Notes under the pieces: model-generated
The model's database searches: none
What the model saw: the letters and a program-made list of their open reading frames with translations, nothing else
What the model was told of the DNA's origin: nothing
Assembly: GCA_028825265.1 (NCBI GenBank)
Contig: JAPKAM010000008.1
Span: 1 to 52,462, forward strand
Direction: 5' to 3'
DNA length: 52,462 bases
From: Planctomycetota bacterium
GTDB taxonomy: Bacteria; Planctomycetota; UBA8108; UBA1146
Made by a program: the position numbers and the translations under genes
In this document: positions 8,484 to 52,376 of the stretch, piece by piece
How the letters are laid out: every line of letters begins with the position of its first letter
Numbering within the stretch: the first letter of the stretch is position 1

Positions 8484-11400
8484 TCAGGATGTCGGTTGTT
8501 GTGCCACGAGTTGCGTGACCCGGTGGGCGATCACCGAGACGGCTCCCAGTCGTTCTTCGACCTGTCCTTCGACCAGCAGGGGACCCCTTCCATCGAGTAG
8601 GACTCGACGTACCGAGGGCCAGATCGAACTGAAGCAACTGACCTCACAGGTGCCGTGTTCATCTTCGAGGGTGATGAAACCCATCGCACCGCGGGCACTG
8701 GGGTGATGTCGAGAGGCGATGCGGATGCCGCTGATCCGGACCTTGTCGCCTGCTTTTCTTGGCACGTCGATCAACGAGATGCAGCCGAGACGCTGCCGGA
8801 TGTCACGGTGGAACTGCATCGGATGAGCCGTGATCCCTGCTCCCAGCAATCGGATCTCGTGTTCGAGCAATTTCTGTGGCGACAGTTCAACGAGGGGGGG
8901 GCCCTCGTCGACGATGCCTGCCAGGTCTCCGGTGGTCGCCTGTCCCCTGGATGCGCCCAGTGAACGGTATCGGGTCCGCATACGCCATAGCAGTCGGGTA
9001 CGGGGGATCTCGAAGTGGTCGAGTGCGCCGACCAGGATCCACTCCTCCAGTTCCGACATTCCGATCCGGGTGCGGCGTATCAGATCCTCGGGAGAATCAA
9101 AGGGTCGACTGGCGAAGACCGATTCGATGCTGGTCTGGCGTGATCCGAGGATCATCGTCAACGGCATGCGAATCGATCCATCCGACTCCAGGGTGAAGGT
9201 CTCTGCGGAGCACTCGACGCATGGTAAACGCAGCGCCACTCCCCGTCGCCGCGCCTCGGCGACGAAGGCGGCGAAGGGATACATGCCGGCGTGATGTCGA
9301 AACAGCGCGCACAGGAACTCGGCCGGGTGGTGGGCCTTGAGCCAGGCACTGCGCCAGGCGAGTAACCCGTAGGAGGCCGCGTGCGCCTTGTTGAAGGAGT
9401 AACTGCCGAAGCGCTGCAACTGTTGCCACAGTTGACGGGCTTCCCCGGCGCCGAAGCCGTGGCCGATGGCGTCGGCGATGAACTGGTCTTCCAGTCGTTG
9501 TATTTCTGCGTGGGAATCGCTGCGTACCGCACGAGCCAGGGCTCTTCGCAGCAGGTCCCCGGCGGCGAGGCTCTGGCCGGTGACGAGGGCGACCAACTCC
9601 ATTAAGTTTTCCTCGTAAAGGAGCAGCCCGCGCTGCTGCCCGAGTAACGAGGCGAGGGCCGGATGCGGCGGATCAGGGGCTTCCAGCCCCCTTGCCCGGC
9701 GGCAGAAAGCGTCCTTCAATCCGCCGGCAGAGGGTCCAGGGCGGATGAGGGCGACCGCTTGGATCGTCTCCTGTGCATTGCCCGCCTTCATCTGGATCAG
9801 CAGTGATCGCATCGCCGGACTCTCCAGTTGGAAGCAGCCGAGGGTGTCGCCACTTTGCAACAGTCGTGCGGTTCGTTCGCATCGTTCCGGGATGGCCGCG
9901 ATGTCGAGACGCTTGCCACTGCGCTGCTCGATCAGGTCGCGAACCGTTCCGATCTCCGAGACACAGCGGTTGCCGAGCAGGTCGATTTTGATCAACCCAG
10001 TCTCCTCGATGGAGTACATGTCGAGTTGGGTGATGATGATTCCCCGTGCTGCTCTCTCGACCGATGCGATCTGCTGGATGGGACGATCGGCGATGCAGAT
10101 GCCACCTGGGTGTACCGATCGATGGTGTGGTCGACCCAGTAACCACTGAGCATCTTCGAGCAGTTCCCGGCGAGCCGTTGCAGGAATTCCGATGGCTGCA
10201 ACGACGGGATCGTTACGGAGAAATTGCGGGATCGAATCAGGGGCACTGGATCCACCGAGGCGATGGGGCAATCGACGAGAGATGCGATCGACATCGGCGG
10301 GGGAGAGACCGTGAGCCCGGGCCGCTTCTCGCACGGCAGAGCGAGGCTGTAGCGTGGTCCGGGTACAGATCATCGCCGTTCGGTCCTTACCGTAGCGCTG
10401 GTAGACGTGATCGATGATGCGATCTCTCCCCTGCCAGCACAGGTCGATATCGATGTCGGGAAGGTCCTTACGATCCGGGTGCAAGAATCGTTCGAAGCGA
10501 AGACCGTGGGCGAGGGGGTCGACCTGGGTGATTCCGAGGGCATAGGAGACGATGGAAGCGGCTCCGGAACCGCGGCCTGCACATTCGATTCCGAGCCGAT
10601 GTGCCTCCGAAACGATGTCGCCGACTACCAGGAAGTAGGGGACGAATCCCATCGAGTCGATGACTTGCAGTTCGGTGGCGAGGCGTTCGAGGGCGGCGCG
10701 GGTGATGCTGCCGTAGCGGCTCACTAGGCCTCGATGGCACTGTTCGTACAGGAGCCCGAAAGGGGTCTGCCCGGGCGCGATCGGAAAGGGCGGGAAGATG
10801 GTTGGAGTCGCAGAGTGATCGAAGTTCGATGCCTCCTTCTCGATGCGGGAGGCGGATTCGAGAGCGGCGGGTAGATCGCGGTACAGTTGTTGCCACCGGG
10901 CTGGAGTGGGAATCGGGGCGAGCAGGGGAGAGATTTCCGGATCACGCTGATCGATTCGATCTCGAGCGACCCGTTCGATGGTCGAGACTCGGCGTACCGC
11001 TTCGAGCAAATCATGTCTCGGTTGCGTCACCGGTTGTAGCAACCCGATCCGTGATGAGGCGATGACCGCGAGTCCCAGTTGATCTGCGGCATCGAGGGCC
11101 CGATGTTCTCGTGCGATGGGATCGCGCAGGCGGTCGATCTCGAGCAGTACTCGATGCCGTGCCGACGGACCGAGTTGTTCGACCAATTGCCGTGCCAGCG
11201 ACAGGTCGCGTACCAGGATCAGCAGGGAAGGGGCATTGCAAACCTCATCGACCAGGTCAAAGGGAATCGAAGTTGAAGTTGGATTTGGATCGGTTGCGAT
11301 CGGTTCGGACAGACGTCGACCGCTGACCAGTGAGTGCAACTGCTTGCGGCTTGCCGGGTCCCTGGCGATGGCGACCACCGATCGACCGCAATTTCCATCG

Positions 11401-11609
11401 ACCTCGGCGGCGGCCAGCAACTTGAGATCGACCGATCGAGCCGCTCGGGTGGCTTCGACGATGGTACCGAGATCGACCTGTTCTGCGACCACAGCACTGC
11501 GCCAGCCGAGCCGGGCGGTTTCCTCGATGAGGGTGGAGATCGGCTCCATCCCTCTGAGCAGGGAGCCCCAGGAGCGCAGTGAGAGAAGCAATGGAGAGTC
11601 AGCAGGCAC
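8484..11609 (-). CDS. dnaE2: Error-prone DNA polymerase III alpha subunit, DnaE2
   Basis: 1041-residue C-family polymerase used in SOS-induced translesion synthesis. I chose the GTG at 11609 (GAGG six nt before) because it lies just downstream of the SOS promoter; the ORF-track start at 11921 would run through that promoter and an upstream terminator. Order: degenerate PHP domain (the usual LHxHS-like metal site reads 'LSLRSWG'), polymerase core with 'FLVVGDIVSEAHRLGI', 'GRGSGAASIVSYALGITQVDP' and catalytic 'PDIDIDL', a helix-hairpin region, and a C-terminal OB fold ('GDKVRISGIRIASR'). Most cassettes place imuA/imuB before dnaE2; neither is next to it here. Confidence 0.93.
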   Translation of the reverse strand: MPADSPLLLSLRSWGSLLRGMEPISTLIEETARLGWRSAVVAEQVDLGTIVEATRAARSVDLKLLAAAEVDGNCGRSVVAIARDPASRKQLHSLVSGRRLSEPIATDPNPTSTSIPFDLVDEVCNAPSLLILVRDLSLARQLVEQLGPSARHRVLLEIDRLRDPIAREHRALDAADQLGLAVIASSRIGLLQPVTQPRHDLLEAVRRVSTIERVARDRIDQRDPEISPLLAPIPTPARWQQLYRDLPAALESASRIEKEASNFDHSATPTIFPPFPIAPGQTPFGLLYEQCHRGLVSRYGSITRAALERLATELQVIDSMGFVPYFLVVGDIVSEAHRLGIECAGRGSGAASIVSYALGITQVDPLAHGLRFERFLHPDRKDLPDIDIDLCWQGRDRIIDHVYQRYGKDRTAMICTRTTLQPRSAVREAARAHGLSPADVDRISRRLPHRLGGSSAPDSIPQFLRNDPVVAAIGIPATARRELLEDAQWLLGRPHHRSVHPGGICIADRPIQQIASVERAARGIIITQLDMYSIEETGLIKIDLLGNRCVSEIGTVRDLIEQRSGKRLDIAAIPERCERTARLLQSGDTLGCFQLESPAMRSLLIQMKAGNAQETIQAVALIRPGPSAGGLKDAFCRRARGLEAPDPPHPALASLLGQQRGLLLYEENLMELVALVTGQSLAAGDLLRRALARAVRSDSHAEIQRLEDQFIADAIGHGFGAGEARQLWQQLQRFGSYSFNKAHAASYGLLAWRSAWLKAHHPAEFLCALFRHHAGMYPFAAFVAEARRRGVALRLPCVECSAETFTLESDGSIRMPLTMILGSRQTSIESVFASRPFDSPEDLIRRTRIGMSELEEWILVGALDHFEIPRTRLLWRMRTRYRSLGASRGQATTGDLAGIVDEGPPLVELSPQKLLEHEIRLLGAGITAHPMQFHRDIRQRLGCISLIDVPRKAGDKVRISGIRIASRHHPSARGAMGFITLEDEHGTCEVSCFSSIWPSVRRVLLDGRGPLLVEGQVEERLGAVSVIAHRVTQLVAQQPTS

Positions 11610-11644
11610 GGAAAACCTCGGATCGGTGGGGACGGAGCGGTCGC

Positions 11645-11673
11645 AGGATAGCGAACATCTGTTCGCCATCCAA
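11645..11673 (-). promoter_or_regulatory. LexA-type SOS box inside the dnaE2 promoter
   Basis: Minus strand: -35 TTGGAT, 17-bp spacer, -10 TATCCT. The spacer is almost entirely the palindrome GCGAACAGATGTTCGC, of the GAAC-N4-GTTC type used by Gram-positive-style LexA. Bases 11644-11670 are identical to 39733-39759 upstream of dinB. Repressor bound here would cover both promoter elements. Confidence 0.85.
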
Positions 11674-11860: not shown

Positions 11861-14800
11861 TCAGGGGCAGGCGTCGTAAGTTGTACAGTCGAGCGCATCG
11901 GAGGTCGGATCTGCACCGCACACGGGAGCGGTTGGGGCCGGCATGTTGGGCCCACCCGAGAACAGATTCGACAACTCGTACACCGCATCGGCGATGTTGA
12001 CCAGGCCGTCATCGTTACAGTCTGCTGCATCGTCGCAGTTGATGGCGCCGCCGCTGAAGAGGCCCGCTAGCAGCGAAACGGCATCGGCGATGTTGATCGC
12101 ACCGTCCGAGTTGATGTCGCCGCGCATGAAGCCACCGGTCGAAGGCTGAAGGGTGACGGTACCGTTGGCCAGAGCTGCGGGATTCGCCTGTCCATCGACG
12201 ACGACAATGTTGACCACCGAGGGAGAACCGAGCGAACTACTCCAGCTCAGAGGGGTCGTGGTTCCGGCGCTGTTGCCGATGAGGCCAGACGGCACCGTAT
12301 CGTAAGCGACGCTTCCCACCGAAGTACTGCTGGAAAACAACAGGAAGACAGTGTTGGAGAAGCTGTAGACACAACCCACCGTGAGACCATCGACATAGAA
12401 GTTGATATCGATGAAGTCCGGTCCGCTGTTGCCGTTGAGACCGTCGAGAGCCGCAGCAGCAGTCCAGGTGGTGGCCGTGATCAAACTCGGGTTGTTGGCG
12501 ACGCCTAGGGAGAAGCCCTGGGTCTGGTTGGGGTACCCGGGCGCAGTGGCATCTTCCTCGATCGACAAGGATGCTGAGAAACTGCCATTTCCGGTCGCGG
12601 GCGAGTAACTGGCCAGCACATCGGAAGCAATGAAGGTGAATCCATCGAGCGGCAGCTGGCACGACGGCAAGGAGGAGCAGTCCGGATCGTCGCAGTCGAT
12701 CAGTCCATCGCCATCATCGTCTGTACCATTGGTGCAGTTCTCGGGCGGGGCACCCACACAGGCCGGGTCGAGGTCGCAATCGGTATCTTCGCAATCGATC
12801 AGGCCGTCACCGTCGTCATCCACTCCATTGGTGCAGTTCTCCGGCGTCGGGGCACCCGCGAGGGTGATCTCGAGAATTCCGGTTCCTGAATCTCCCTGGG
12901 CCCAACTGCCGACTCGGATGAAGTAGGTCGTCCCACCCGTCATGCTGACATCGAGGATCGAGGTGAACGAGCCGCAGCCGATGCCATCTCCGTTGCAGGC
13001 GATCTGTGTCAGGGCGCCACAGGTTCCCTGGTAGATCACCACATCGCTGTCGAAGGTGATGGAGTCGCAAGTCGAGATGGTCGCGGTTCCCGAGGTGGGA
13101 GCCGTGAACTGGTACCACGCGTCCGATCCCATGTCGCCGAGAGCGGAAGTGGCACACTGACTATTGTCGTAAGGATCGGCACTGGTGGTCATCGCCGTGG
13201 TGTCGACTGCATTCGATCCGACCACTGCCACCAGCGGATCGGCACACTCGTCACCGGTACCGCCGCTACCGCCACAGGCGGGGTTGGGGGTGCAATCGGG
13301 GTCTGCGCAATCGACCAACCCATCGCCGTCATCGTCGGTTCCGTTGGTACAGTTTTCGGTCACTGGTCCACCGCCCCCGACGCTGATGGTGAGGGTTCCA
13401 GTTCCTGAAGTACCGATCGCCCAACTACCCACTCGAATCATGTAGGTGTTGCCCGCCGTCATGCCCACATCGAGAGAGGATGTGTATGCGGTACAGGCAG
13501 GACCATCTCCGTTGCAGGCGATCTGGTCGAGGGCGCCACAGGTGCCCTGGTAGACGACGAGGTCGCTGTCAAAATCGATGGCGTCACAGGTCGAGATCGT
13601 GGTGATTCCCGTAGTGGTTGCAGTGAATTGATACCAACCATCGGAAGCCATGTCGCCGAGGAAGGAACCGAAACACTGGGCATCGCTGTAGGGCTCGGCA
13701 CTGGTGGTCATCGCGGTGGTGTTGATGGGGTTGGCCCCCTCCACCACAGTCAGTGGGTCAGCGCATTCATCTCCGGCTCCACCGCCGCCGCCGCCACCAC
13801 CGACGGTGATGTTGAGGGTGCCGGTCCCGGAATCACCATTGAGCCAGCTTCCGACGCGGATGTAGTAGCTGTTGCCTGCCGTCATACCGACATCGAGTGT
13901 CGAGGTGAATCCGATGCATGCTGGACTATCGCCGATGCAAGCGATCTGGGTCAGAGCCCCGCAAGATCCCTCATAGACGACGATGTCACTGTCGAAATCG
14001 ATGCTGTCACAGGTCGAGACGGTCGTGGTTCCTGTGGTGTTCGCGGTGAACAGGTACCAGGCGTCCGAGCCCATGTCACCGAGTGATGTTCCGACACATT
14101 GAGCGTCGTTGTAGGGATCCGCGCTGTTGGTCATCGCAGTGGTGTCGACTGGATTGGCCCCTTCCACCGCAGTGAGGGGATCTGCACATTCATCGCCGGA
14201 TCCGCCACCACCACCGCCACAAGCGGGGTTGGCGCTGCAATCGGGGTCGGCGCAATCGATCATTCCGTCGCCGTCATCGTCGGTTCCATTGGTGCAGTTC
14301 TCGGTTACCGGACCGCCTCCGCCGACTGTAATGGTCAAGGTGCCGGTTCCCGATTGGGTGGCATCCCAGCTGCCCATGCGGACTAGGTACTCGACTCCAG
14401 CAGTGACGGGAACCCCGGTGATCAGGGAAGTGAATGCGCCGCAGCTGCTTCCATCGCCGTTGCAGGCGATCTGGTCGAGGGCGCCACAAGCACCGACGTA
14501 CACCGCAAGGTCGGAATCGAAACTGATGGAGTCACAGGTACTCACATCCATCGATCCGCTGGCGGTGGGGGTGAAGGAATACCAGGCATCCTGACTGAAG
14601 ACGCCCAGGAAACTACCGGGGCACTGGGCCTCACTGATCGGGTCTGTTCCGGTGGTCATCGTCGTGTTGTCGACCGCATTGGCCCCTTCGATCAGGGCGA
14701 TGGCGGTACTGCACTCATCACCGGCACCTGCGGGAAGGCAGGCGGGACTCGTGAAGCAGTCTGGATCGATGCAGTCGATCAGCCCATCGCCGTCATCGTC

Positions 14801-16153
14801 GGTTCCGTTGGAGCAGAGTTCGACGTTGCCACCACCACCCGCGGGAAGAGTATCGATGGTCAACTGGCCGGTGCCGGCGGAATCGAGCCAGGCTCCAAGG
14901 CCCAGACCCCAGGAACGAGAGAATCGTCCGTAATCGTCGGAGAAGTTGTTGCCGCACGCCGCAGCGCCACAGCACAGTTGACCGATGACGCGGTGATCCT
15001 GATCAAAAAGAGGTGAACCGGACGATCCCGGTTCGGTGGTTCCCAGGTCCCAGTCATTGACCGTGACGTAGTTGGTCGAGAGGGTCGGCGCCTGGTTCTC
15101 AAAGGAGATTCGCTTTTCCTCGACGTTGGGGTGATGAATGCCGGCTGCACTGGTCGGCTGCGAAGTCGATGCGTTCCATCCGCAGAAGGAGACGCCATAG
15201 GCGGGATTGGGAGGGCTGGTCAACTCGACCAGCGTGTAGTCGGAGGTGCTGGAACCAGAACGGTAGATGGCACCGCTGCTGAACTGGTTCAAGGTGCCAT
15301 TTCCGGGCCCACCACTGGCGCCGGATCCTGGCGCTCGACAGGTCGAGTTCTCGTAGTTCCAGTACACCACCAGTGAGCCAGCGTTGCCGCCGGTGACACC
15401 GCAGTGATCGGCAGTCATGAAGAAGGGAGTGCCATCCTGGGCGGTGTTATTGACCATGAATCCGGTGCAGAAGAGCGATCCCCCGGTGGAGATGACCCCG
15501 ACGCAATCGATCTCGTTTTCCCAGCCGGCCGATTGCGGGCAAACCACGTCGACATTGCAGGAACCAGACATCGACGGGCCGGTGTTGGTGGAAGAAGGCA
15601 CACCAAAGAACTCATGAAATCCACGGTATCCAGGATTGATGGAAGCCAGTTCCACCTCCTGGTCGATCAACCAGCGATCTTCGAGTGCGCAGGTGATTTC
15701 GATGACCACATCATTCCCTGCGATGGCGGGAGTCCAGAGTACGCCGGAGTCCTGGATGTCATCGACGGTGAAGGGGCGGGCCCGGTGGGTCCGATCGATG
15801 TTGTAGAGATTCATCTGACCCTCGACCGGCACCAGCCAGCGGCTGAATCCGAAGTTCATGCTGATGGCATTCTTGCAACGAGCTCGAAGACGCCACACTG
15901 CAGTCTGGTCATCCAGTTTGCTCCATTGTCCGTGGGTCGATGGACGGATGTCGACCGGCTGAGGTACGGCATAGCGAGGAGCCATCCCGGCTCGGTCGCG
16001 ATCGATGTCCTCCAGGTTCAGCGCCTCGAGTTCTAGGGCCGGAACCTCGACCACTGGCACATCCTTTAAGGAGATGTCAGCGCTGGCCAAGGTGGGGCCG
16101 AAGCCGACAAGGGAGAGAAGCGTAATGAACGCTGCAAGAGATCGAACTAGCAT
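11861..16153 (-). CDS. Secreted trypsin-like serine protease with four tandem domains and dockerin-like C-terminus
   Basis: About 1430 residues. Start set at the second ATG of 'ATGATG', six nt after AGGAGG; the ORF-track start puts that SD inside the gene. Signal peptide ends near 'TLASA'. The catalytic domain resembles lysyl-endopeptidase-type proteases: His in 'TADHCG', Asp in 'SDYTLVEL', Ser in 'EPGSSGSPLFD', with many cysteines. Then come four repeats, each beginning 'DEC' and containing 'STCDSIxFDSD' and 'GSW...SGTGTL' (jelly-roll-like pre-peptidase look), joined by Ca-binding-like 'NGTDDDGDGLIDC' linkers. A separate beta domain follows, then two dockerin-like repeats ('DINSDGAINIADAV', 'DCNDDGLVNIADAV'). 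Probably an exported or surface-displayed protease. It follows the DUF1080 gene on the same strand with about 220 bp between. Confidence 0.88.
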   Translation of the reverse strand: MLVRSLAAFITLLSLVGFGPTLASADISLKDVPVVEVPALELEALNLEDIDRDRAGMAPRYAVPQPVDIRPSTHGQWSKLDDQTAVWRLRARCKNAISMNFGFSRWLVPVEGQMNLYNIDRTHRARPFTVDDIQDSGVLWTPAIAGNDVVIEITCALEDRWLIDQEVELASINPGYRGFHEFFGVPSSTNTGPSMSGSCNVDVVCPQSAGWENEIDCVGVISTGGSLFCTGFMVNNTAQDGTPFFMTADHCGVTGGNAGSLVVYWNYENSTCRAPGSGASGGPGNGTLNQFSSGAIYRSGSSTSDYTLVELTSPPNPAYGVSFCGWNASTSQPTSAAGIHHPNVEEKRISFENQAPTLSTNYVTVNDWDLGTTEPGSSGSPLFDQDHRVIGQLCCGAAACGNNFSDDYGRFSRSWGLGLGAWLDSAGTGQLTIDTLPAGGGGNVELCSNGTDDDGDGLIDCIDPDCFTSPACLPAGAGDECSTAIALIEGANAVDNTTMTTGTDPISEAQCPGSFLGVFSQDAWYSFTPTASGSMDVSTCDSISFDSDLAVYVGACGALDQIACNGDGSSCGAFTSLITGVPVTAGVEYLVRMGSWDATQSGTGTLTITVGGGGPVTENCTNGTDDDGDGMIDCADPDCSANPACGGGGGGSGDECADPLTAVEGANPVDTTAMTNSADPYNDAQCVGTSLGDMGSDAWYLFTANTTGTTTVSTCDSIDFDSDIVVYEGSCGALTQIACIGDSPACIGFTSTLDVGMTAGNSYYIRVGSWLNGDSGTGTLNITVGGGGGGGGAGDECADPLTVVEGANPINTTAMTTSAEPYSDAQCFGSFLGDMASDGWYQFTATTTGITTISTCDAIDFDSDLVVYQGTCGALDQIACNGDGPACTAYTSSLDVGMTAGNTYMIRVGSWAIGTSGTGTLTISVGGGGPVTENCTNGTDDDGDGLVDCADPDCTPNPACGGSGGTGDECADPLVAVVGSNAVDTTAMTTSADPYDNSQCATSALGDMGSDAWYQFTAPTSGTATISTCDSITFDSDVVIYQGTCGALTQIACNGDGIGCGSFTSILDVSMTGGTTYFIRVGSWAQGDSGTGILEITLAGAPTPENCTNGVDDDGDGLIDCEDTDCDLDPACVGAPPENCTNGTDDDGDGLIDCDDPDCSSLPSCQLPLDGFTFIASDVLASYSPATGNGSFSASLSIEEDATAPGYPNQTQGFSLGVANNPSLITATTWTAAAALDGLNGNSGPDFIDINFYVDGLTVGCVYSFSNTVFLLFSSSTSVGSVAYDTVPSGLIGNSAGTTTPLSWSSSLGSPSVVNIVVVDGQANPAALANGTVTLQPSTGGFMRGDINSDGAINIADAVSLLAGLFSGGAINCDDAADCNDDGLVNIADAVYELSNLFSGGPNMPAPTAPVCGADPTSDALDCTTYDACP
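12655..14719 (-). repeat. Four tandem coding repeats within the protease gene
   Basis: Units begin at 14719, 14194, 13771 and 13252 (minus strand), roughly 420-600 bp each. Three carry a DDDGDG Cys-rich linker at the end; unit two ends in a poly-Gly run instead, and the last has two linkers. High similarity indicates duplication and makes this stretch prone to recombination or misassembly. Confidence 0.85.
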
Positions 16154-16375
16154 CATGATCCTCCTGAAGGACATGTATTTGGATCGAATCGGTCGATAGT
16201 CATCGCAACCCGACCCGATCCCCTGCCGGGTACCCAGCGGGTATCGGAAGGAAAAAGTTGGACAGAAATTACACCTGAGTCACCCCGAATCGTGATTCCG
16301 GTTTCGAACGATGATCGAACGATGTTTGAACATCGAGCGGCACATCACTGGATTCATCGGATTTCAAAGCCGTCT
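16154..16375. other. Intergenic spacer with palindrome CGATGTT-TG-AACATCG
   Basis: A spacer of about 220 bp between two minus-strand genes. It contains a 16-bp inverted repeat at 16320-16335, with GAACGATG-type half sites just beside it (16306-16323). It may be an operator for the protease gene; no regulator is encoded nearby. Confidence 0.4.
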
Positions 16376-38365: not shown

Positions 38366-39691
38366 TCAGCGGGTCAGGCACGAGGTGCGCAGGATGAGTC
38401 CGTGCCGATCGCGTTCGAGACCGGTTCTGGCTCTCTTCTCATCACCCTTCTCGTCACCTCTGTTGTGGCCCGATTGCAGGGTCAGGGCACTGCCGCGTAG
38501 TAAAGCGCCATGGCCGTGGCGCATGCGGATTTGATCGACCTGCTCGAGGATCTGTTTCCAGCGCTGACCCGACTGCGAATCAGCCTGCGAATCAGCCTGC
38601 GGCGCGTCGATGTCAGCGGCGAACAGGTCTCCTTGTTGAAACGTGGGGGCGAGGCGAATGCGGTCGAGTTGGATCCCGACAAAGCGGATGGCGGTGCGAC
38701 GCCCCTCCATCGAAAGGCGCAGTTCGAGAGCGGCCTGGATGATGAAAGGATCGAGGGCGGTTGGAGCGGCCAGCACGATGCGGCGACGATCGCGGCGGTG
38801 ATCACTATGAGTGACCTGGAGCGAGATCCCCCCCGCTTCCAGACCTCTCTGGCGCAGATATCTGGCGGCTCGTTCCGCCAGATATTCGATCATCGCATCG
38901 AGGGTGCGGGGGCAGGTGACATCTTGATCGAAGGATGTCCCACGCTGAATCGATCGTGGGATCTCGCGACCACCGATGGGACGATGATCTTCGCCTCGGC
39001 AGCGCTCGTAGAGGGACTCGCCATGACGGCCGAGGATTCCGGCGAGAGCGGGTCGCGAGAGTTCTCGCAGCTGTTCGATCTTGTCGATGCCGAGATTCGA
39101 GAGGATCTCGACGGTACGAGGGCCGACCCCGGGTAAGTGTTCTATCGGCAATCGTAATAGAAAAGTTTCCTCTTGTTCCGGTTCCAGGTATCCGAGGCCA
39201 TTGGGTTTGTGGAACTTGCCGATGAGTCGGGCGAACATTCGGTTACGCCCGAGTCCCGCGGTGACGGTCAGTCCAGTACTGGAGTGAATCGCATCGCGTA
39301 GCCGGGCGATTTCTTTGGCGGGATCCGGATAGATTTGCTCGGTTCCGGTCAGGTCGCAGTACGCCTCGTCGAGGTGTTCTTCGACTAGCGGTGACCAGTT
39401 CTGGCAGATCTCAAACATACGGGTGGCGTAACAGCGATAGATCGATTCGTGACCGCGTACGATCACTAGTGGCGGACATTTCCGGAGCGCCAGGCCGAGC
39501 GGCATTCCCGCCTTCAACCCGTGACTTCTCGCCTCGTAAGAACAGGAAGCGATGACGCCACTCCCGACCGCAACCGGCTGTCCGGCGAGACGTGGATTGC
39601 GCAACTGTTCGACCGAGGCGAAGAAGGCATCGATGTCGAGGTGAAGGATCAGCGGGCGCAGAATCTTCGAGGGGGAAAATGATGGAGACAC
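38366..39691 (-). CDS. dinB: DNA polymerase IV (Y family, DinB)
   Basis: 441 residues. GTG start with AGGA at good spacing. Metal site Asp19/Asp21 in 'LHLDIDAFFASVEQ' and Asp108-Glu109 in 'EEHLDEAYCD'; helix-hairpin-helix 'LPGVGPRTVEILSNLGI'; little-finger domain; a clamp-binding-like 'QGDLF' at 353-357, followed by 'DSQADSQS' repeats. Translesion polymerase, here preceded by the same SOS box as dnaE2. Confidence 0.94.
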   Translation of the reverse strand: MSPSFSPSKILRPLILHLDIDAFFASVEQLRNPRLAGQPVAVGSGVIASCSYEARSHGLKAGMPLGLALRKCPPLVIVRGHESIYRCYATRMFEICQNWSPLVEEHLDEAYCDLTGTEQIYPDPAKEIARLRDAIHSSTGLTVTAGLGRNRMFARLIGKFHKPNGLGYLEPEQEETFLLRLPIEHLPGVGPRTVEILSNLGIDKIEQLRELSRPALAGILGRHGESLYERCRGEDHRPIGGREIPRSIQRGTSFDQDVTCPRTLDAMIEYLAERAARYLRQRGLEAGGISLQVTHSDHRRDRRRIVLAAPTALDPFIIQAALELRLSMEGRRTAIRFVGIQLDRIRLAPTFQQGDLFAADIDAPQADSQADSQSGQRWKQILEQVDQIRMRHGHGALLRGSALTLQSGHNRGDEKGDEKRARTGLERDRHGLILRTSCLTR

Positions 39692-39732: not shown

Positions 39733-39759
39733 CAGGATAGCGAACATCTGTTCGCCATC
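39733..39759 (-). promoter_or_regulatory. LexA-type SOS box upstream of dinB
   Basis: 27 bases identical to 11644-11670, centred on GCGAACATCTGTTCGC. On the minus strand it is followed by the -10 TATCCT; the -35 position reads GTAGAT. About 42 bp upstream of the dinB GTG. It also lies about 80 bp upstream of the divergent enoyl-CoA hydratase gene, which it might affect. Confidence 0.85.
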
Positions 39760-46606: not shown

Positions 46607-48951
46607 CCGCATGGCTTGAAAAACTGATCTTCGAGCACCGGAGACTGATGCTGTGGCTGTTGGCTGTCGTCTCGGTACTGCTGACGGTCCAGGCCGCTCG
46701 GTTGGCAATCGATGCTGGATTCGAGAAGCAACTACCCCTCAGCCACCCGTACATGGAAACCTTCGTCAAGCATCGTGAGCAATTCGGCGGCGCCAACCGC
46801 TTGTTGATCTCGGTCCGTGCCAAGGACGGAGATCTGTTCGATCCGGTCGCGCTGGAGCGGGTCCGTGATGTGACCCGGGCTCTCGCCGAGGTACCAGGCA
46901 TCGATCGCACTTCTGTGAAATCTATCTTCACTCCCAACGTTCGATTCGTACGAATCGTCGAGGGAGGATTCGAGGGCGGGAATGTGGTGCCTGCGGAATG
47001 GCAACCGACCACAGAGATGGCCGATCAGGTCAGGGAGAATGTGCTCTATTCGGGCCAGGTCGGAAGACTGGTGGCCAACGATTTCTCCGCAGCGATGATC
47101 ACCGCAACGCTGGTCGAACAGGATCCCTTCACCAAGTTGAAACCGGATCCGATCGTGGTGGGGAATTTCCTCGAGGAGATGGTGCGTGCACCCTTCGTCG
47201 ACGAGGACATCGACATTCACATCATCGGATTCGCGAAAGCGATTTCAGACATCGCGGGTGGCGCGGTACAGGTGGTCGGGTTCTTCGCCATCGCTTTGTT
47301 GGTGACGGCATTCCTGGTGCGCTCCTTCTCCGGATCATGGCGACTGACTCTGCTCCCGATGGCTTGCTCCTTGCTGGCAGTGATCTGGACTCTCGGCACC
47401 GTCACGACCCTGGGATATGGACTCGATCCGATGTCGATCCTGGTGCCCTTCCTCATCTTTGCCATCGGGATGTCACATGGGGTGCAGATGACCGGTGCCT
47501 TCTCCGGCGCCATCGTCGAGGGTGCGGATGCAGTCTCGGCAGCGCGGACCGCCTTTCGTCAACTACTCCTTCCTGGCAGTGTGGCCCTGTGTAGTGATTC
47601 TGTCGGGTTCCTGACTCTGCTCTTCATCGAGATCGGTGTGATCCAGCACCTAGCCGTGATGTCTGCGGTGGGGGTGGTCCTGATCTTTGCCACCGGATTC
47701 GTGTTGCTGCCACTCTTACTCGGTGGGATGAAGGTGGGAGACTCCTTTGTGGAGCGGATGGCTAAACCGACGCCGCTGCGAGATTCGCTGTGGAATAAGC
47801 TCGCCGCTTGTACCCGTGGACCGGTGGCGGTGGTGCTGGTCTTGGCCTCCATCACTGCGGTGTACTGGGGCTGGAACCGCGCAGATGAAGTCATCATTGG
47901 TGACGCCAATGAAGGACTTCCGGAGTTGCACTTCGAATCTCGATACAACATCGATACCCGCAACATCGCTCATTCCTTTTCCATCGGAGTGGACCTGATC
48001 ACAGTGATCGTCGAAACGGTTCCCAACGCGAGTATCGATCATGCCGTGATGGATCGGATCGACGAGTTCCAGTGGAAGATCTCCAACATCGATGGAGTCC
48101 GCTCGACCATCTCCTTGCCGCAAGTCGCCAGAATCCTCGCCGCCGCCTGGAGTGAGGGCTCGCCCAAGTGGCGGGAGTTGCCAAGAAATAGTGAGATCCT
48201 GGCGCAGGCACTGAGCAGCATCGAGACATCCACCGGACTGTTGAACTCGGATGCGAGCGTGTTGCCGGTGTTGATCTTCACCGAGGATCACAAGGCAGAA
48301 ACGATCAATCGTGTGACCGAGGCGGTCGAGAAGTACGGGAAAGAGTTACAATCGGAGAAGGTTCATTTTCGCCTGGCGACCGGCAATGTCGGTGTGATGG
48401 CCGCTACCAACCAGGTGGTGGCCGCCGCCCAGATGGAGATGCTCATCACCATCTACTTGGTGGTGATCGCCCTCGGACTGCTGGCATTCCGGAGCATTCG
48501 GGCGACTCTTTGTGTGATCCTGCCGTTGATTCTGGTGAGTATTCTCTGCTACGCACTGATGGTGATCTTCGACATCGGTTTGAAGGTTTCGACCTTGCCG
48601 GTGGCCGCTCTGGGGGTCGGGATCGGAGTCGATTACGGCATCTACATCACTACTCAATTGATGCGAGCGCGTCGCAAGGGAGCCGATCTGGAGAGTGCCT
48701 ATCTGGTCTCCCTCAAGCGCACCGGCAATGCAGTTCTGGTGACTGGACTGACGCTGGCACTGGGCGTGGCCACCTGGATCTACTCCGACCTGAAATTGCA
48801 GGCGGACATGGGCTTGTTGCTGTGCTTCATGTTCGCAGGAAACATGATCGGAGCGCTGGTGCTGTTGCCCGCCCTGCAACGGGTCTTGCCCGGTGGGGGA
48901 GGCGAAGGTCGTTCGACTGACAGCAAGGGGCAATCTGCCTCGAAGCAGTAG
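46603..48951 (+). CDS. RND/MMPL-family transporter
   Basis: 782 residues with two repeats of TM1 + periplasmic loop + five TM helices. 'FLIFAIGMSHGVQMTGAF' and 'ALGVGIGVDYGIYITTQL' are the paired TM4/TM10 regions of the lipid-exporting MMPL/HpnN group. Likely uses proton motive force to move a hydrophobic substrate between the inner membrane and the periplasmic carrier. Short polar Ser/Lys-rich C-tail. Confidence 0.9.
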   Translation: MTAWLEKLIFEHRRLMLWLLAVVSVLLTVQAARLAIDAGFEKQLPLSHPYMETFVKHREQFGGANRLLISVRAKDGDLFDPVALERVRDVTRALAEVPGIDRTSVKSIFTPNVRFVRIVEGGFEGGNVVPAEWQPTTEMADQVRENVLYSGQVGRLVANDFSAAMITATLVEQDPFTKLKPDPIVVGNFLEEMVRAPFVDEDIDIHIIGFAKAISDIAGGAVQVVGFFAIALLVTAFLVRSFSGSWRLTLLPMACSLLAVIWTLGTVTTLGYGLDPMSILVPFLIFAIGMSHGVQMTGAFSGAIVEGADAVSAARTAFRQLLLPGSVALCSDSVGFLTLLFIEIGVIQHLAVMSAVGVVLIFATGFVLLPLLLGGMKVGDSFVERMAKPTPLRDSLWNKLAACTRGPVAVVLVLASITAVYWGWNRADEVIIGDANEGLPELHFESRYNIDTRNIAHSFSIGVDLITVIVETVPNASIDHAVMDRIDEFQWKISNIDGVRSTISLPQVARILAAAWSEGSPKWRELPRNSEILAQALSSIETSTGLLNSDASVLPVLIFTEDHKAETINRVTEAVEKYGKELQSEKVHFRLATGNVGVMAATNQVVAAAQMEMLITIYLVVIALGLLAFRSIRATLCVILPLILVSILCYALMVIFDIGLKVSTLPVAALGVGIGVDYGIYITTQLMRARRKGADLESAYLVSLKRTGNAVLVTGLTLALGVATWIYSDLKLQADMGLLLCFMFAGNMIGALVLLPALQRVLPGGGGEGRSTDSKGQSASKQ

Positions 48952-49045
48952 CGCCGATGCGGACTACAGCACCGGGTCCCGATCAAGGAGATGACTTGTC
49001 ATGGCCCTTCTGAAGCACGGATGCCGCAGCGGACTCGGTCGAGAA

Positions 49046-51496
49046 TCACTCGGTCGGGTATCGCTCGGTTGCAGGGCAAGTACCCGCTGGGAATGAATCG
49101 ACCGCAATCGCTTCGCGACGGGCCAGATCTGCTTCACGGAGGCGACGCTCCCCCTCCTCATCGATGACTCCTGCTGCCAGTCCTCTTTGTACTAGGGTCG
49201 AGGACGGATGCTTGTCGAGACGCTTGGTGCGGATGGCATCCTTCAAAGCTTCGGTATCGCCACGGGATACGACAATTTTTTCCAGTGCCGCTTCCAGGGT
49301 CGCCAATCCGGGGCTGCCGGCGGGGCGCGTGATGACATCCTTGGTGAGGCTGAGAATCAACGGCGCTCCATCGAGTAAGTCGGCGGCGATCCGGTCGGCG
49401 AGTTGATCGGAGGGGCCGTGCGTGATCGTTCGACCCGGCACACCCAGAAGACGAAGAGCCGACGCCGCAGGACGGTGTGGAAGATTCTGGACGAAACCCG
49501 CCAGTGCCTCTTCGGTACGAAGAACACAGGTTTCCATCAGGTACTGGACCAGTTCTGCATCTCGGGCGGGCCGGCCATCGTCGTGAAACTTCTTCAACGC
49601 TGCCGAGCCGACGGTGATCCAGGAGAGCGCGTCGGCGAGTCGACCGGTCAGGTGTTCTTTACGCTTGAGAGACCCACCGAGAGTGGCCATGGCGATGTCT
49701 GAACTGAGTGCGAAGTGAGCCGACAAGCCGGTGAGTCGCTGTTGGCAGCGGCCGATGGTGGAATCGAAATTACGGCTGGTCAGTCGATAGAAGCTGAGCC
49801 TGTGGAACAGTGAGCGGGTGGCATTGGATATGACGAAACCGACGTGTCCCCAGAATGCGCGGTCGAAGGCGGCCAGGTCACCCTTCTCTACCGCTTCCAG
49901 TTCGGCGGTGACGAATGGATGACAGCGAACAGCACCCTGGCCAAAGATGATCATGGTGCGGGTCAGGATATTGGCTCCCTCGACGGTGATCCCGACTGGA
50001 ACTGCGGAGTAGGCGTTGGCGAGTTCGTTACGAGGACCGCGGCAGATGGCATTTCCTGCGACCACATCCATCGAGTCATTGACCACCTCGCGCAGTCGTT
50101 CCGTGGCAAATGCCTTGGCGATGGCACTGATGACCGCTGGTTTCTCGCCGAGATCGACCGCCAGGGTGGTGATTCCTCTTAGCGCATCGAGGGCATAGCT
50201 GCTAGATGCGGATCGGACCAGAGGTTCCTGGACTCCTTCGAAGCGACCGATGGGGAGTCCAAATTGCTCGCGGACCGAGGCGTGAGTCGTGGCGACTCGC
50301 AGGCACACCTGTGAGCCGCCCACCGAACTGGAGGGAAGTGAGATGCCGCGTCCTGCCGAGAGACATTGCATCAACATCCGCCAGCCCTTGCCGCACCCCT
50401 CCTCGCCGCCGATCACTGCATCGATGGGGACCCACACGTCGCGACCTCGGGTCGGGCCGTTGAGGAAGGGGACCCCGAGTGGGTCGTGGCGCTCACCGAT
50501 TTCCACGCCCTCCAGGTCGGCGGAAACCAAAGCACAGGTGATGCCCAGATCATCCTTTTCTCCAAGCAGGTGATCCGGGTCATAGAGGCGGAAGGCGACC
50601 CCGACCAGCGTCGCGCGCGGTGCCAGTGTGATGTAGCGCTTGTCCCAGTTGAGCCGGATCCCGAGTTTCTTCTGACCCTCGACTTCTTGTTCGACCACGA
50701 CTCCGTGGCTCGACATCGATCCTGCCGCATCCGATCCGGCACCAGGTTCGGTCAGCGCGAAGCAGGGAATCTCCTGCCCGCTGGCCAGCAGTGGTAGCAA
50801 GCGGTCCTTTTGGGAGTCGGTTCCGTAGTGCAGCAGCAATTCTCCGGGCCCCAGGGAGTTGGGAACCATGACCGTGATGGCCAATGCATTGCTTAGAGTT
50901 GCGACATGGGAGATCACCGCTGACATGGCGGCGGCGGAGAATCCGAGCCCGCCATAACTTTCGGGGATGATCATGCCGAAGAATCCGCGCGAGGCGAGGT
51001 AGTCAAACGCTTCATCGGAGATGGAGCCGTCCTGACGGTCCTTCCAGTTATCGACAAATTGAGTCAACTCTGCGACCGGTCCTTCGATGAATTCTCTCTC
51101 CCGTGAGGTCAGTTGTGCCGGACCAAGGGAGAACCAGCGCTTCCAGTTCGGGGCTCCGGAGAAGATCTCGCCGTCCCACCAGACGGTTCCCCCTTCCAGT
51201 GCTTCCCGTTCGGTTTCACTGATGGCGGGAAGGATCTTCTTGACGATTCCCATCACCATCGAGGTGATCCACCAGCGCCGTAGCGGAGCGATGAAGCCGA
51301 TCACCAGCAGCACGGAAAATCCGATCAGGATCACTCGATCGGTGAGGGTCGGTGTTTCGCCGGAGAGCAGCGGAAGAGCACAGATCATCGCTCCTGAGAC
51401 GGTCCAGGCCCAGCGCACCTTTCCCGCTAATAGCAGCCACAGCGCAGGGATTCCGATCAATAACCACGGCAGGACTTGTGGAACATTTTCGAGCAT
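49046..51496 (-). CDS. fadE: Acyl-CoA dehydrogenase, FadE type
   Basis: 816 residues, the length of the E. coli FadE branch. Two N-terminal TM segments, then the ACAD core: 'IPCFALTEPGAGSDAAGS' (FAD site), 'GWRMLMQCLSAGRGISLPS', 'VEGANILTRTMIIFGQGAVRCHP' region, and the DUF1974-type C-terminal extension. First step of fatty acid beta-oxidation, membrane-associated. Its ATG overlaps the stop of the upstream lipoprotein gene (TGATG). Confidence 0.92.
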   Translation of the reverse strand: MLENVPQVLPWLLIGIPALWLLLAGKVRWAWTVSGAMICALPLLSGETPTLTDRVILIGFSVLLVIGFIAPLRRWWITSMVMGIVKKILPAISETEREALEGGTVWWDGEIFSGAPNWKRWFSLGPAQLTSREREFIEGPVAELTQFVDNWKDRQDGSISDEAFDYLASRGFFGMIIPESYGGLGFSAAAMSAVISHVATLSNALAITVMVPNSLGPGELLLHYGTDSQKDRLLPLLASGQEIPCFALTEPGAGSDAAGSMSSHGVVVEQEVEGQKKLGIRLNWDKRYITLAPRATLVGVAFRLYDPDHLLGEKDDLGITCALVSADLEGVEIGERHDPLGVPFLNGPTRGRDVWVPIDAVIGGEEGCGKGWRMLMQCLSAGRGISLPSSSVGGSQVCLRVATTHASVREQFGLPIGRFEGVQEPLVRSASSSYALDALRGITTLAVDLGEKPAVISAIAKAFATERLREVVNDSMDVVAGNAICRGPRNELANAYSAVPVGITVEGANILTRTMIIFGQGAVRCHPFVTAELEAVEKGDLAAFDRAFWGHVGFVISNATRSLFHRLSFYRLTSRNFDSTIGRCQQRLTGLSAHFALSSDIAMATLGGSLKRKEHLTGRLADALSWITVGSAALKKFHDDGRPARDAELVQYLMETCVLRTEEALAGFVQNLPHRPAASALRLLGVPGRTITHGPSDQLADRIAADLLDGAPLILSLTKDVITRPAGSPGLATLEAALEKIVVSRGDTEALKDAIRTKRLDKHPSSTLVQRGLAAGVIDEEGERRLREADLARREAIAVDSFPAGTCPATERYPTE

Positions 51497-52176
51497 CAGG
51501 CTTCCTCTTCTCCGACAGTGGGTGCGGGCACTTGGCGGCGCAGATCATCTTCCATCAGATCGACTCCGAACCAGCCCAGCAAGGCATCGAGCACTTCCAG
51601 TGGATGGATTCCGACGTCGATGGTCACCACACCCAGTGTACCCGAAATGGCAAACCAGGTGTTTCGGCTACTGCGCTGAGCCTCCGACAGTTGAGCCAGC
51701 GAAGGGGCCTCGATGAGCCAGTCATGATGGATTTTTCGGTGCCACTGCATCAGCGAACACGATTGTCCCTCGACGTGGTGATTCCCCCTCAGCATACAAG
51801 CGTTGAGCCAGCCCTTCAGTGCTGGACTCGTGGCCGAATCGTCGGTTGTTCCTGACGGGGACTTCTCGAAGGGGAAGGCGACTAGCATCGTCGGAAAAGA
51901 TGCCGAGCGCAGCACTCCGGCGGGTTGGCCCGGTCGCGGGTCATGGCCGATGGTGAAGCGTGGTGAGAGATTGGCATCGACAAAGCCGATCGCCGGGTGC
52001 AACCAGCCGGTGGCCTCGATCTCACCGTAGAGCCCTAGCCCCGCGCCGACGCGTGCACGCACTGTATCGGTCAGATCATCGATTCTGGCCGGGATGTCGA
52101 TAGATTTGCAGCCGCAGGGGAGGAAGCCCAGCAGCACCAGCAGAACGATTGCGCCACTTCTCGACCAGAACCTCAT
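51496..52176 (-). CDS. Putative lipoprotein of unknown function, coupled to fadE
   Basis: 226 residues from the ATG preceded by AAGGAG. Signal 'SGAIVLLVLLGFLPCGC' could be lipidated at one of the two Cys, although the lipobox is not canonical. Then 'RVGAGLGLYGEIEATGWLHPAIGFVDANL', suggestive of a membrane-associated Gly-rich stretch, and a C-terminal hydrophobic segment 'GTLGVVTIDVGIHPLEVLDALLGWFGVDL'. No family recognised. The one-base overlap with fadE implies a linked role at the membrane. Confidence 0.72.
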   Translation of the reverse strand: MRFWSRSGAIVLLVLLGFLPCGCKSIDIPARIDDLTDTVRARVGAGLGLYGEIEATGWLHPAIGFVDANLSPRFTIGHDPRPGQPAGVLRSASFPTMLVAFPFEKSPSGTTDDSATSPALKGWLNACMLRGNHHVEGQSCSLMQWHRKIHHDWLIEAPSLAQLSEAQRSSRNTWFAISGTLGVVTIDVGIHPLEVLDALLGWFGVDLMEDDLRRQVPAPTVGEEEA

Positions 52177-52376
52177 CGACTTCTCCTTCCGGGTCGCAGT
52201 CGACCCATGCCCGCAGCATGGACCATCGAGCCTACATCTTGAAGGTGTCCGGTTACGGATTGTGCAACACTGGCACGGCTTGAAGATCCTATTTATCATT
52301 CTCGTTCGGGATGGCCGTGTCTCATCGATGGGCCACCGCTTCGGAGAGGTACTTTTGCGATGAAAAGGGTGTTCTG

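Follow-up and report, generated by a model that had tools for sequence, protein, structure and literature searches.

Why should two genes for error-prone polymerases, about 28 kb apart, carry the same 27 bp in front of them? The block, CAGGATAGCGAACATCTGTTCGCCATC, occurs exactly at 11644-11670 and at 39733-39759 of the window, by which we mean the whole 52,462-nucleotide stretch analysed here, taken from a Planctomycetota MAG (2.98 Mb in 200 contigs, ~90% complete, 4% contaminated). Read on the minus strand, both copies give GATGGCGAACAGATGTTCGCTATCCTG, and both have the same orientation relative to the gene concerned, dnaE2 in one case and polY in the other. The answer we favor, with a probability of roughly 0.9, is that the block forms the core of two SOS promoters, in which a predicted LexA operator, GCGAACA-N2-TGTTCGC, lies in the spacer between the -35 and -10 hexamers and abuts the -10. 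The features on which the argument rests are as follows.

8484-11609, minus strand: predicted dnaE2-type C-family DNA polymerase gene, 1041 aa, GTG start (Pfam DNA_pol3_alpha, finger and HHH_6)
11644-11670, minus strand: 27-bp block, first copy, comprising the predicted LexA box and the -10 of the dnaE2 promoter
11645-11650, minus strand: predicted -10 of dnaE2, TATCCT; hexamer positions 2 (A) and 6 (T) nearly invariant across 38 distinct sites
11651-11666, no strand: predicted LexA box of dnaE2, GCGAACATCTGTTCGC (palindrome GCGAACA-N2-TGTTCGC); profile match in its own genome, E=1.1e-8
11668-11673, minus strand: predicted -35 of dnaE2, TTGGAT; the 17-bp spacer holds the box, and the equivalent place in relatives is TTG-rich
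38366-39691, minus strand: polY, Y-family polymerase gene by Pfam, GTG start, active site intact
39733-39759, minus strand: 27-bp block, second copy, upstream of polY
39734-39739, minus strand: predicted -10 of polY, TATCCT; conserved hexamer positions as at dnaE2
39740-39755, no strand: predicted LexA box of polY; profile match, E=4.0e-7

The shared block and the lexA promoter

The first-pass annotation had reported a 27-bp block common to both polymerase genes and, at dnaE2, a palindrome filling the 17-bp spacer; both descriptions held, with the exact copies found at the two coordinates and the palindrome flanked by TTGGAT and TATCCT. The palindrome itself, GAACATCTGTTC, of the GAAC-N4-GTTC type, is present at both window sites, with 41 bases between box and GTG start at dnaE2 and 48 at polY, where the -35 is poor (GTAGAT). 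No further match to the 16-mer GCGAACATCTGTTCGC was found in the window at up to three mismatches (0.71 expected from shuffles). The shorter GAAC-N4-GTTC pattern, which had been put forward for scanning the genome, occurs in the window at chance level when one mismatch is allowed (24 found, 22 expected) and in 39 places in the whole genome, and is therefore too loose for that purpose. A third window site of this pattern, at 1281-1292, was rejected; it carries no GCGAACA/TGTTCGC extension and is absent from the profile matches. The remaining direct repeats of at least 18 bp in the window have partners no more than 2 kb apart, most within one repetitive gene at 12.7-14.8 kb. As a separate observation, several exact repeats of 18-32 bp at 12726-14808 lie inside one large gene (11861-16174), which has four matches to a galactose-binding-like domain.

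A single LexA was detected in the host genome, on contig C191 (138 bits with TIGR00498, for which the cut-off is 111), and alignment to E. coli LexA structures indicated that its self-cleavage residues are intact (AAGEP site, GMSM serine, and TLK lysine). The first-pass annotation had proposed looking for the motif upstream of lexA and recA, and for lexA the proposal was borne out: its promoter holds the box with one change, GCGAACATCTGTTCAC, within TTGACC-N17-CATCCT. In a 16-mer search of the genome, which is independent of profile training, matches with no mismatch were limited to the dnaE2 and polY promoters, the sole one-mismatch match to GCGAACANNTGTTCGC lay immediately upstream of lexA, and the next weaker sites, at two mismatches, lacked the conserved -10 context. 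Because C191 (37-4687) and the right end of the window (47103-52309) both align with a single contig of a close relative, with 247 bp between the matches, lexA is very probably on the same strand as polY and ~15 kb upstream of it, the adjacency of the two contigs being a prediction from synteny.

A profile search of the host genome gave E values of 1.1e-8 at dnaE2, 4.0e-7 at polY, and 1.3e-5 at lexA, scores that are not independent because the training set included these sites; the next independent match had an E value of 0.53. Only the dnaE2, polY, and lexA sites stood above noise in this search, in whose first pass 150 of 1411 candidates (about 1400 per genome) were scored, so that weak sites may be missed.

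Conservation, rival readings, and the position of recA

Across relatives the box lies upstream of dnaE2 in ten loci, upstream of polY in all family members with a readable promoter, and upstream of lexA both in the family and in several further families of the class; at all three genes the combination of box and -10 recurs throughout the family. A footprint was compiled from 38 distinct promoter sequences of lexA, polY, or dnaE2, drawn from members of the family and of the class (one, from G038, is doubtful). In it, CGAAC/GTTC and positions 2 and 6 of the -10 were nearly invariant and the flanks were free to vary, giving a layout of palindrome followed directly by (T/C)A(T/C)NNT, with a TTG-rich -35 also kept; some lexA promoters of the class have two boxes ~34 bp apart. 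The exact pattern was found in 21 of 40 relatives, and the reversed control pattern in none of them. Outside G018, the boxes whose neighbors were checked by tblastn mostly had dnaE2, polY, or lexA downstream; one box, at a contig edge, adjoined the counterpart of the window gene that diverges from polY.

Twenty-seven identical bases at a distance of 28 kb are far beyond chance, and a few of them (GATG) lie outside the box and -10, as might be expected had a recent duplication, gene conversion, or mobile repeat copied one promoter to the other site. However, the flanks are particular to each promoter and are conserved at the orthologous promoter of other species, most close relatives' orthologous promoters share no more than the LexA box and -10, and within the genome the exact 16-mer is confined to these two genes. 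In seven relatives, the longest block common to dnaE2 and polY measured 25, 18, 18, 22, 21, 16, and 8 bp. As relatives keep just the box and -10 between the two genes, duplication is not needed, and we regard such copying as very improbable. Exactness over 27 bp is in part luck: the conserved part is essentially the box plus -10, and the additional matching bases are incidental to this genome and are not kept in relatives. Less probable still is that the box at 39740 serves the enoyl-CoA hydratase gene (39772 onward, plus strand) rather than polY. It does sit between polY and this divergent gene, likewise in one relative, but the orientation of the -10 and the distance to the start suit polY, and dnaE2 and lexA show an equal arrangement without such a neighbor.

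The palindrome could also be the operator of another dimeric repressor, since its size fits many repressors. One candidate would be a second LexA paralogue, which has self-cleavage residues and is encoded by most family relatives and several class relatives. Against this, the C191-type lexA has the box in its promoter in every family member for which that promoter was found, the second paralogue had no GAAC-N4-GTTC box in its upstream 250 bp in the relatives examined, and the host genome keeps its boxes although no second paralogue was detected there. We consider control by a repressor other than the C191 LexA improbable, if slightly less so than promoter copying, and retain the reading of the palindrome as the operator of the C191 LexA. 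The earlier proposal that it represents the LexA motif of this lineage is likewise supported by its place in lexA's own promoter, kept across the family. By its sequence, the operator is of the GAAC-N4-GTTC ("Gram-positive") class, placed in the promoter spacer. Since lexA, polY, and dnaE2 carry one box across the family, a joint LexA-controlled mutagenesis regulon, suggested at first from the two polymerase genes, is well supported at the level of sequence.

For recA the corresponding prediction failed. No match closer than four mismatches was found in the 500 bp upstream of recA (less at contig ends) in the host genome and 29 relatives, so the classical recA-lexA pair was not seen in these 30 genomes. 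An operator at recA is common among LexA regulons but not universal. By eye, an inverted ATTCC...GGAAT is retained within the genus in the sequence upstream of recA, close to the start.

Given an operator in the promoter spacer, bound LexA would be expected to repress by blocking RNA polymerase. As in the LexA family generally, RecA filaments on damaged DNA would trigger LexA self-cleavage, which would relieve three promoters at once, those of lexA (followed by an ImuB-C-like gene), polY, and dnaE2, and we infer that all three are damage induced. The encoded proteins probably make up a translesion mutasome; PolY would bind the clamp and RecA, and DnaE2 would copy past lesions.

Polymerase types and a proposed dispersed operon

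The nearest relatives of the window dnaE2 are from Planctomycetota MAGs, with a few records bearing another or no phylum label. The host encodes a second C-family polymerase on contig C119, 32% identical to the window product, and NCBIfam models do not tell DnaE1 and DnaE2 apart in this case (562 versus 547 bits, both below the cut-off). A Pfam search of the window protein did not match the PHP domain; by eye, its N-terminus also lacks the HxH start usual for that domain. Both features are in line with the report that the PHP domain is inactivated in most DnaE2 (PMC12926913). The presence of a second C-family polymerase, the missing Pfam PHP match, and the polY neighbor in relatives together identify the product of 8484-11609, by sequence criteria, as DnaE2-type.

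The gene at 38366-39691, labeled dinB in the first-pass annotation, is better described as a polY of the RecA-NT type. Its product has a clamp-binding-like QGDLF motif (QxxLF type) and a RecA-NT-like motif in a C-tail that aligns to RecA N-termini (hhalign probability 87%, E 4e-6, from a single comparison of hand-cut segments). A distinct and more canonical DinB (Pol IV) is encoded on contig C55, and no box at up to two mismatches was found in the upstream stretch fetched for that gene. Only two IMS proteins were found in the host genome, each with the active-site D and DE residues. In class relatives G019 and G017, the usual active-site motifs of the Y-family proteins were absent in a pattern search; these are perhaps inactive PolYs.

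After lexA lies a small conserved gene of 86 aa, an ImuB-C candidate with weak similarity to DUF6504, the sole Pfam match common to most of its orthologs (8 of 11, best E 0.0012); for the first member this match fell below the curated cut-off. In G021 and G025, lexA, the ImuB-C-like gene, polY, and dnaE2 adjoin on one strand in the manner of a single operon, in G024, G026, and G039 polY adjoins dnaE2, and in these related orders the grouped genes sit behind LexA-like boxes wherever the upstream region is visible. The family of the window keeps the lexA-polY-dnaE2 order and strand, spread over about 45 kb, with gaps of ~15 kb between lexA and polY (9 kb in G007) and 26-30 kb between polY and dnaE2, and each split unit has its own box. 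In a PolY tree labeled by arrangement, the split family falls beside operon-bearing groups. An ancestral operon that was later split would be the simplest reading, short of proof because the tree needs three changes. We further propose, tentatively and at slightly less than even odds, that LexA in this family controls just its own mutasome (lexA with the ImuB-C-like gene, polY, and dnaE2), that the operon was dispersed over ~45 kb while every piece retained or reacquired the same operator, and that LexA does not control recA or error-free repair, which may instead answer to the second LexA paralogue.

Relation to known SOS systems

In Gram-positive bacteria, including Bacillus subtilis and Mycobacterium tuberculosis, the LexA motif is GAAC-N4-GTTC (PMC3323433). 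The half-sites and the 4-bp spacing are identical here, and here too the box stands before lexA and error-prone polymerase genes. The present system differs in its Planctomycetota host, in the extended form GCGAACA-N2-TGTTCGC, and in excluding recA, which LexA does target in Streptomyces venezuelae (PMC9380542). Planctomycetes LexA is reported not to recognize the E. coli box (PMC3108266), and a limited literature search returned no earlier description of a planctomycete LexA motif. A concrete motif is now given for one Planctomycetota lineage, though the type of switch was already known.

A close parallel in gene content is the lexA-imuB-C-polY operon of Geobacter sulfurreducens, as described in PMC6511836. 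The two systems appear to share a lexA beside an ImuB-C-like gene, a PolY that is active and bears a RecA-NT motif, the presence of two lexA genes in the lineage, and a recA that is not a LexA target. Unlike that operon, the set here includes dnaE2 and in the window's family is split into three units. ImuB-C with an active PolY has also been described in Planctomycetes (PMC6511836). A putative DnaE2B-PolY-[ImuB-C]-RecA mutasome was reported only in Actinobacteria (PMC12926913). An equal set of parts is predicted here, and no ImuB was found in the host genome (both IMS proteins have intact active sites), but in another phylum and with the genes dispersed under one common operator.

The ImuA-ImuB-DnaE2 cassette would appear similar in pairing a LexA-controlled DnaE2 with a Y-family protein. 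ImuB of that cassette is a catalytically dead Y-family protein, whereas the active site of the window PolY is intact, so that PolY is not an ImuB, and there is no ImuB among the host's two IMS proteins. As for the RecA-like ImuA of the cassette, one RecA-family match was obtained in the host genome. The arrangement as a whole suggests that the SOS response has been reduced to induced mutagenesis and leaves out recA, and, with its operon split, the family provides a natural test of how a shared operator keeps the parts of a putative polymerase complex co-expressed. In the family relative G009, an exact LexA-type box (contig C25, 16560-16575) lies ~26 bp before an ATG of a DUF222/HNH-type gene (Pfam DUF222, 2.6e-8), and 13E12-like genes, which are of this kind, are SOS-controlled in mycobacteria.
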